From positions 1 through 64,000 of the forward strand of contig CAITEH010000085.1 in the NCBI GenBank assembly GCA_903891415.1: DNA of 64,000 nucleotides, given 5' to 3'. Below are positions 24,481 to 25,389 of the stretch, piece after piece (the stretch's first letter is position 1; each line of letters starts with the position of its first letter). The DNA comes from Candidatus Firestoneibacteriota bacterium. GTDB taxonomy: Bacteria; Oederibacteriota; D2-FULL-39-29. The translations under genes were made by a program, and so were the position numbers. The notes beneath the pieces were generated by a model, which did not search any database, was not told the origin of the DNA, and worked only from the letters and a program-made list of their open reading frames with translations.

Positions 24481-24509
24481 TTTACAAAAAACCTTGTATT
24501 TGCTATAAT
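24481..24509 (+). promoter_or_regulatory. tRNA-Val promoter TTTACA-N17-TATAAT with extended -10 (TGC)
   Basis: TTTACAAAAAACCTTGTATTTGCTATAAT. Confidence 0.8.
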
Positions 24510-24598
24510 TCCATAAAAGGGCGCTTACCCTAAACCACTTACTAGCGTTCGGGTATAGGGAACAGCTCTTTTGGAAAGAAAAGTTTATTATTGGATGT

Positions 24599-24675
24599 GG
24601 GCGCTTAGCTCAGTTGGTTAGAGTATCAGCTCGACAAGCTGAGGGTCACTGGTTCAAGCCCAGTAGCGCCCACCA
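24599..24675 (+). tRNA. tRNA-Val (anticodon GAC), CCA encoded
   Basis: GGGCGCT...AGCGCCC ACCA; anticodon arm TCAGC-TCGACAA-GCTGA. Confidence 0.9.
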
Positions 24676-24800
24676 TATACCACTCCCCGAGTAGTTCTTC
24701 TGGTCAGGTATATGGCAAGCCATAAACTACTCCGTGTGAAGTGAAATAGTTTGGGGCGGGTACCTGGCATGACCTAAATATAAAGGGCGTAAGCCATGCC
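24673..24800 (+). ncRNA. Candidate structured RNA downstream of tRNA-Val (tentative)
   Basis: CCATATACC/GGTATATGG and GAGTAGTT/AACTACTC pair in interleaved (pseudoknot) order; also GGCATG/CATGCC. Confidence 0.35.
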
Positions 24801-24843
24801 GGAGAAGAAGCGGAAAATTCTCTGATGAGGAAAAGCACAAAAG

Positions 24844-25389
24844 ATGAAATGTTCAAATCATAAAAAAAAAGAAGCCGTTACGGCCTGTTCTCTTTGCGGG
24901 ACGGCTTTATGCGCGAAGTGTAATTTAACGCTTGCCGGGAAGAACTACTGTCAAAAATGCGCGGACGAACTGGTAAGAGACGGCGCTATTGTGACGGTCC
25001 GGAAGCTTTATGAGATACTGGAAGAAAAAAGAAAGCATTACCGGGTACATCTCCTCCTGAATCTTAAAATAGCGTCTGTTGAGAATAAAGAAATGCTCTT
25101 GAAAGGGATCCTCCACAACATAAGTTCAGGAGGCATGGCGGCGCTCAGTGATAAACCTGTCTCTATTAATGAAATAGTTCGTCTTTCCTTTGTTCTGCCG
25201 ACCAGAGAGCACCTGGAAAATCTGCAGGGCGGGGTAATAAGATCAGAAAAGATAGGCGAGAAATATAACCTCGGATTTATTTTTATGAACCTGGGGGAAA
25301 AACAAAAAATTATTGATGACTTCCTGATGGATTTCAGAAAGAAAAAATACGCGCAGGACAGCGCGAACATGTCAAACTACCTGTTCTAA
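24844..25389 (+). CDS. B-box-like zinc finger plus PilZ domain protein
   Basis: CxxHx9CSLCGxxLCxKCNLTLAGKxYCQKC; RKHYRVHLLLNLKI...NISSGGMAAL (PilZ RxxxR...SxxG). Confidence 0.8.
   Translation: MKCSNHKKKEAVTACSLCGTALCAKCNLTLAGKNYCQKCADELVRDGAIVTVRKLYEILEEKRKHYRVHLLLNLKIASVENKEMLLKGILHNISSGGMAALSDKPVSINEIVRLSFVLPTREHLENLQGGVIRSEKIGEKYNLGFIFMNLGEKQKIIDDFLMDFRKKKYAQDSANMSNYLF

Follow-up and report, generated by a model that had tools for sequence, protein, structure and literature searches.

Identification of a tRNA-anchored hairpin repeat

The intergenic segment at the 3' end of tRNA-Val in the window (the whole 64,000-nt stretch of DNA that was analysed) is probably a REPIN-like hairpin repeat, present as a solo copy and partly decayed, of a kind that is linked to GIY-YIG nuclease genes and, in several bacterial phyla, lies exactly on the 3' ends of tRNA and tmRNA genes. 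A covariance model of this repeat family, R1, which was trained without the window copy, matched positions 24672–24716 (29.5 bits, E = 6e-7), and comparison with the other hairpins showed the segment to be a member of the family. The one-off “pseudoknot” of a preliminary description is replaced by a defined, searchable repeat family whose structure is conserved and whose position is precise, and which has a likely nuclease partner.

The preliminary description had reported two interlocking perfect helices, and both were found at their positions in the order 1-2-1'-2': helix 1 of 9 bp (CCATATACC, 24673–24681, with GGTATATGG, 24707–24715) and helix 2 of 8 bp (GAGTAGTT, 24689–24696, with AACTACTC, 24725–24732). 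Its smaller helices were recovered as well, TATGGC/GCCATA at about 24711–24724 with a 2-nt loop, and GGCATG (24766–24771) with CATGCC (24795–24800). The element abuts tRNA-Val, but it overlaps the end of the gene rather than starting right after it, because the CCA tail supplies the first three bases of helix 1. The view of the segment as structured and non-coding was borne out, with helix 1 backed by comparative evidence; on the minus strand, a 50-aa ORF with a TTG start extends across part of the segment, and nothing suggests that it is a gene. The proposed Rfam scan, at gathering and relaxed thresholds, matched the tRNA and no other Rfam family at the segment. The features of the locus are listed in Table 1.

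Table 1 Features of the tRNA-Val locus in the window.
Feature	Position	Strand	Basis
Promoter-like site TTTACA-17-TATAAT, with TG before the second hexamer	24481–24509	+	Consensus scan, 11/12 matches; kept in G001
GGGCGCTTA, repeat of the initial 9 bases of tRNA-Val, directly ahead of the leader hairpin	24519–24527	+	Direct repeat D6
Family hairpin in the tRNA-Val leader	24527–24561	+	Model R1, 32.2 bits, E = 7e-8; orthologue in G001
tRNA-Val(GAC) with encoded CCA (24673–24675), anchor of the element	24599–24675	+	ARAGORN, Rfam
CCA-anchored family hairpin	24672–24716	+	Model R1, 29.5 bits, E = 6e-7; same arms at tRNA-Glu of this genome
Helix 2 of the preliminary description, apical loop to downstream DNA	24689–24732	+	Sequence alone; no comparative support
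Possible second, degenerate hairpin GCCATAAACTA/TAGTTTGGGGC	24719–24757	+	11 nt at 82% complementarity; R1 5.5 bits, weak
PilZ-domain gene downstream, outside the element	24844–25389	+	Pfam PilZ, E = 6e-11

Structure and covariation of the hairpin family

In the R1 consensus, the outer stem is variable and is followed inward by ACY/RGT, a bulged A, a Y-R pair and a 2 × 2 internal loop, which reads TC/TC or, on the opposite strand, GA/GA; the inner stem is short and ends in a small loop. Comparison of the members showed that the stems of the family are compensated. A regular expression for the core identified 39 distinct sites in the fetched loci versus 0 for the reversed control; at 29 of these 39 sites, at least 6 of the 7 flanking bases were paired, and the stems were of 18 different kinds. 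When 28 hairpins were aligned, 94.5% of cells were paired and both sides changed in 9 of 13 pairs, and the covariation score was 0.403 compared with 0.174 in shuffles (0/500; 28 hairpins), although these counts are inflated because several hairpins come from related genomes. Since the outer seven pairs of the alignment were partly pre-selected for pairing (≥5 of 7) and the inner pairs were not, the cleaner evidence of covariation comes from the inner pairs, where column 10 with column 27 gave 22 C-G and 6 U-A pairs, and column 12 with column 26 gave 16 C-G and 12 U-A pairs, both with no exception. Full elements contain a further downstream arm complementary to the 5' arm at a mean of 12.3 of 14 positions (11–14); when arms were swapped between elements, complementarity was 10.97 of 14, and 0 of 2000 reached the observed value.

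In the window copy, the outer stem is helix 1, followed inward by a bulged A (24682), a C24683·A24706 mismatch, a TC/TC loop (24684–24685/24704–24705), CC/GG at the top (24686–24687/24702–24703) and an apical loop (24688–24701); the bulged A and the TC/TC loop of the family are thus present, and the Y-R pair is represented by the C·A mismatch. The outer downstream arm is absent, with 9 of 14 positions complementary to the 5' arm, which is chance level and is likewise the value for the tRNA-Glu copy of this genome (L040). Because full elements reach 11–14, the window copy appears to be truncated or decayed.

The pseudoknot as originally drawn was not upheld. Helix 2 uses the 14-nt apical loop of the window copy, a loop that measures 3–5 nt in nearly all aligned copies, and it is missing in the second copy with identical arms, at tRNA-Glu, being particular to the window copy. 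The covariation called for in the preliminary description was found across the family for the stem of helix 1, whereas helix 2 is without comparative support, and chance is its default reading.

We also considered chance for the arrangement as a whole, with an unrelated sequence allowing both helices by coincidence. In the 64-kb window, the one already noted was the single H-type arrangement of perfect 9+8 bp helices to fit within 70 nt, and 30 dinucleotide shuffles of the window yielded 2 such arrangements in total (0.07 per window; 2 of the 30 shuffled windows held one), so that the arrangement is uncommon, not decisive. Folding of the single sequence was likewise unremarkable: the 90-nt fold was not unusually stable (RNA z = −1.2, DNA z = −1.6), and helix 1 was present in the DNA fold and both centroids and incompletely in the RNA minimum, with a program that is unable to draw pseudoknots and single-sequence folding being uninformative here. 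Against chance stand the independent R1 match and two further occurrences of these arms in this genome, one on another tRNA CCA and one next to a GIY-YIG gene, which leave this explanation with hardly any credibility. For helix 1 itself, a chance origin was ruled out by the arm pattern in this genome, the covariation and the R1 match.

Distribution of copies in this genome and its relatives

A DNA search of the relatives with the spacer returned short scraps only, and the family was therefore reached through the copies in the same genome. There, the spacer search gave two informative short matches, one at the 3' end of tRNA-Glu(CTC), where CCATATACCACTC..GGTATATGGC is read from its CCA, and one in the terminal part of contig C40, which has a GIY-YIG ORF preceded by tandem repeats that contain GGTATATGGCnnGCCATAAAC and GAGTGGTATATG. 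The genome has exactly two instances of the pattern CCATATACCACTC-N(4-34)-GGTATATGG, each on a tRNA CCA; the count was 0 in 43 related genomes and also 0 for the reversed control.

The R1 model matched 33 places in this genome, forming 21 clusters, and had matches in 20 of 44 genomes of the phylum. The zone within 250 nt of tRNA or tmRNA genes, which makes up 0.68% of the genome, contained 10 of the 33 matches and 6 of the 21 clusters (P ~5e-9 for clusters), and the other 23 copies were located away from tRNAs. Four copies in this genome begin on a CCA, namely those at tRNA-Val, tRNA-Glu, tRNA-Gln and, in the opposite orientation, tmRNA. When maximal perfect stems of at least 8 bp were counted independently of the family, 6 of 22 tRNAs in this genome and 18 of 48 in relatives had one starting −4 to +3 nt from the CCA, compared with about 1 and 2.3, respectively, at neighbouring positions; some of these stems belong to other hairpin families or are plain-terminator-like.

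Comparison of orthologous tRNA-Val genes in 9 genomes showed that the inserts at their 3' ends differ between relatives, indicating turnover between species: the CCA is followed by unrelated hairpins in G001, G002 and G008, by ACCACTC-type starts in G005, G006 and G007, and by nothing recognised in G003 and G004. At tRNA-Gln (L249 versus L120), the neighbouring gene is common to this genome and G001, with 81% DNA identity over 1.2 kb. Its location on opposite sides of the tRNA in the two genomes suggests a local rearrangement, and for this reason the tRNA-Gln locus and its G001 counterpart offer no clean empty-site comparison.

Other repeats were noted alongside the family. In G063, a longer dispersed inverted-repeat element CGTGTCCGG..AATTTTTCTATGG.. 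lies away from tRNAs (L167, L175, L180, L186, L189–L192) and has the family hairpin in its middle. An A+T-rich repeat, GAGCAATTGA..ATCGAAAATAGA..GCGGTCTATT, follows tRNA hairpins in several genomes (L154, L198, L203, L204, L207, L210). A second tRNA-anchored hairpin family, GCCA..TGGCGAGATCTCGCC..GGATCCGCC, is located 3' of tRNA-Ser or tRNA-Asp at L158, L161 (the tRNA-Ser of this genome), L091, L107 and L114; the last three loci include a GIY-YIG gene, and none accompanies the copies in this genome.

Leader hairpin and possible roles in transcripts

An unexpected second R1 match was located in the leader of the same tRNA-Val (Table 1); its G001 orthologue was part of the R1 training set. The two orthologues, CCCTAAACC..GGTATAGGG here and CCCTGAACC..GGTACAGGG in G001, a genome of the same genus, differ in sequence with pairing kept, including a C-G versus T-A pair beside the bulge. 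GGGCGC, the start of the tRNA, precedes the leader hairpin in both genomes. Co-transcription of the segment with tRNA-Val, as proposed preliminarily, is plausible from the promoter-like site ahead and from a scan that found no terminator-like site on the + strand, although a promoter-like consensus match by itself is not evidence of function.

These features raise the alternative that the tRNA-Val transcript contains a functional RNA structure, in which leader and trailer hairpins would guide 5' and 3' processing or termination to the benefit of the host. The leader hairpin with its pairing kept through changes, the promoter-like site ahead of it, and the frequency of CCA-anchored hairpins in this genome and its relatives, some of them terminator-like, are consistent with such a role. 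However, the majority of copies lie away from tRNAs, the tmRNA copy has the opposite orientation, the tRNA-Val genes of relatives carry unrelated inserts or none, and inverted doublets occur beside nuclease genes, so we consider this explanation of the segment unlikely; a host RNA role is possible chiefly for the leader hairpin.

The segment had also been proposed to regulate the PilZ gene, and a pseudoknotted RNA controlling this gene would fit the position ahead of it and the possible co-transcription. Yet helix 2 is not conserved, and relatives show no tie between the element and PilZ: another gene lies between tRNA-Val and the PilZ orthologue in G002, G004, G006 and G008, and G003 keeps the tRNA-Val/PilZ order yet has no recognisable element. 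Family members are mostly located elsewhere, also within this genome. Regulation of the PilZ gene by the element is thus unsupported, and a regulatory RNA of this kind would be a most improbable explanation.

Linkage to GIY-YIG nuclease genes

Comparison of loci across genomes showed that the family is linked to tRNAs, anchored on the CCA and linked to GIY-YIG genes. In the relatives, stand-alone GIY-YIG genes are often located directly 3' of tRNA genes, and inverted repeats beginning on the CCA of the tRNA lie between the two. At L120–L123 and L126, a hairpin on the CCA is combined with an inverse hairpin before the GIY-YIG ORF, and such inverted doublets between tRNA and GIY-YIG gene were found in related genomes and Patescibacteria; in this genome, an inverted doublet adjoins the GIY-YIG gene of contig C40. 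The repeats flanking the C40 gene carry the arm variant of the window copy; no GIY-YIG nuclease gene adjoins the window copy itself.

A search with the four closest GIY-YIG proteins (A1) against one genome per species revealed 26 loci, from Firestonebacteria, several Patescibacteria lineages, FCPU426, Termititenax, Kiritimatiellae and Bacteroidota, most of which follow a tRNA (Gln, Asn, Glu, Met, Ser) or tmRNA gene. The proportion of genes with a tRNA or tmRNA within 500 nt upstream on the same strand fell with decreasing similarity to A1, from 15/22 (≥60 bits) through 9/21 (45–60 bits) to 1/26 (30–45 bits). The linked genes belong to the PF01541 GIY-YIG family, and 14 proteins showed no variation at the positions generally regarded as the active site (two Tyr, the Gly of YIG, Arg and Glu); the clade includes a protein of Ulvibacter antarcticus DSM 23424, a marine bacterium in culture. 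At the genome level, co-occurrence was weak, with the repeat in 4 of 4 nuclease genomes but also in 16 of 40 others, and the physical linkage of nuclease and repeat is the stronger evidence. A scan of viral contigs, a weak test that rested on two short peptide patterns, found no A1 relatives.

Several loci showed further arrangements. In L130 (Patescibacteria, JAQTMH010000001.1), two tRNA-Met genes flank the GIY-YIG gene and each has a family hairpin on its CCA, as if tRNA-Met had been duplicated together with the element. In L131 (Bacteroidetes, PLYR01000137.1), a GIY-YIG gene of the clade lies 361 nt downstream of a tmRNA gene, and a long inverted repeat starts near the tmRNA 3' end. In L127, L129, L132, L134, L137 and L142, mostly from Bacteroidota, the 3' arm of the hairpin appears, as judged by eye, to match the last bases of the host tRNA (GCC/GCT/GCG-ATGAAG with CTTCAT-GGC/AGC/CGC), with L136, L126 and L130 as exceptions. 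This genome also contains GIY-YIG genes of another clade (GFTKKYN.NKLVYFE) at L102 (contig C54) and L103 (contig C52), flanked by TGTCATTGCGAGGAATACGGCG..-type repeats as another nuclease/repeat pairing.

Partial tRNA copies were present in several loci (L040, L090, L127, L136). At L040 (contig C27), the tRNA 3'-end fragments GGTTCGAATCCTCCGCCAC and GTATGCGCCACCATA are located downstream of tRNA-Glu, and an ORF upstream of the tRNA reads like the C-terminus of a tyrosine recombinase. Together with insertion at tRNA 3' ends, this recurrence of the tRNA-Glu end and the integrase-like ORF would suit the remnant of a conventional integrative element, whose tyrosine recombinase uses a tRNA 3' end as the att site. 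The window copy, however, has no integrase beside it, the element is ~100 bp with a covarying hairpin, and the gene that repeatedly adjoins it encodes a GIY-YIG protein, all of which make an attachment-site remnant very unlikely.

Proposed mechanism of spread

With some reservation, the solo-copy reading of the segment can be extended to a tentative general proposal, namely that these are miniature mobile elements, distributed across phyla, in which a single-domain GIY-YIG nuclease copies a bulged, internally looped DNA hairpin into the CCA ends of tRNA and tmRNA genes. We infer that the nuclease recognises, cuts and mobilises the hairpin and that the window copy is inactive. A full element is laid out as tRNA, hairpin, inverse hairpin and GIY-YIG gene, a REPIN-like inverted doublet, and its first arm uses the CCA, so that the tRNA stays intact. 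In single-stranded or cruciform DNA, the nuclease may recognise the hairpin by its bulged A and TC/TC loop or by GA/GA on the opposite strand; it would cut at the tRNA 3' end, and repair would copy the element in with the CCA restored. Gene-less copies would have been moved in trans, that in the window perhaps by the contig C40 nuclease. Points that weigh against this reading are the weak genome-level co-occurrence of nuclease and repeat, the 23 of 33 copies in this genome that lie away from tRNAs, and the C·A mismatch, long apical loop and missing outer arm of the window copy. The partial tRNA copies fit a repair-associated duplication of this kind. If true, the proposal could explain to a large extent why tRNA 3' flanks turn over between these species, and the nuclease might be a compact structure-specific enzyme.

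Comparison with known systems

In the literature searched, which was covered in part, we found no description of GIY-YIG hairpin elements at tRNA ends, the closest lead being Ssn. The Ssn proteins of Neisseria are reportedly site-specific single-strand nucleases of single-domain GIY-YIG type that are accompanied by NTS repeats with hairpin potential, and these are said not to be tied to tRNA 3' ends. On this account, both systems link a single-domain GIY-YIG nuclease to a repeat family with hairpin potential, and the tie to tRNA 3' ends distinguishes the present family. The dRS3 repeats of Neisseria are the CGTC-1 REP family (PMC3733652). The nearest solved structures by sequence are UPF0213 GIY-YIG proteins (PDB 1ywl, 1zg2; E = 9e-12); unlike the genes closest to A1, the less similar GIY-YIG clades (30–45 bits) are almost never beside a tRNA (1/26).

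SegB, a free-standing GIY-YIG homing endonuclease, is reported to cut within phage tRNA genes at sites enriched for RAWTSGAAC and to drive the duplication of tRNA segments (PMC13096335). The present loci resemble this system in having a GIY-YIG gene beside tRNA genes, tRNA fragments and a duplicated tRNA (L040, L130), an adjacency that holds for the family and not for the window copy. They differ from it in that SegB is described in phages, with no mention of a hairpin repeat family found in its description (PMC13096335), whereas the genes here are bacterial, single-domain and hairpin-linked. The SegB motif, read on the other strand, would resemble the tRNA T-arm, which suggests how one GIY-YIG enzyme may find many tRNAs and a tmRNA.

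A parallel in organisation is provided by REP/REPIN sequences and RAYT (PMC3116915, PMC2817692), which share with the present family short extragenic hairpins, inverted doublets, compensatory stem changes, clusters beside a presumed mobilising gene and many dispersed gene-less copies. Whereas RAYT is a tyrosine (HUH) transposase, the enzyme linked to the present family is a GIY-YIG nuclease, and the copies are anchored on the CCA of tRNA or tmRNA through a hairpin with a bulged A and a TC/TC loop. Because the linked gene belongs to PF01541, the element may work like a REPIN, but it is not one; if the nuclease acts on the hairpins, the system would be a testable GIY-YIG counterpart of REPIN/RAYT.
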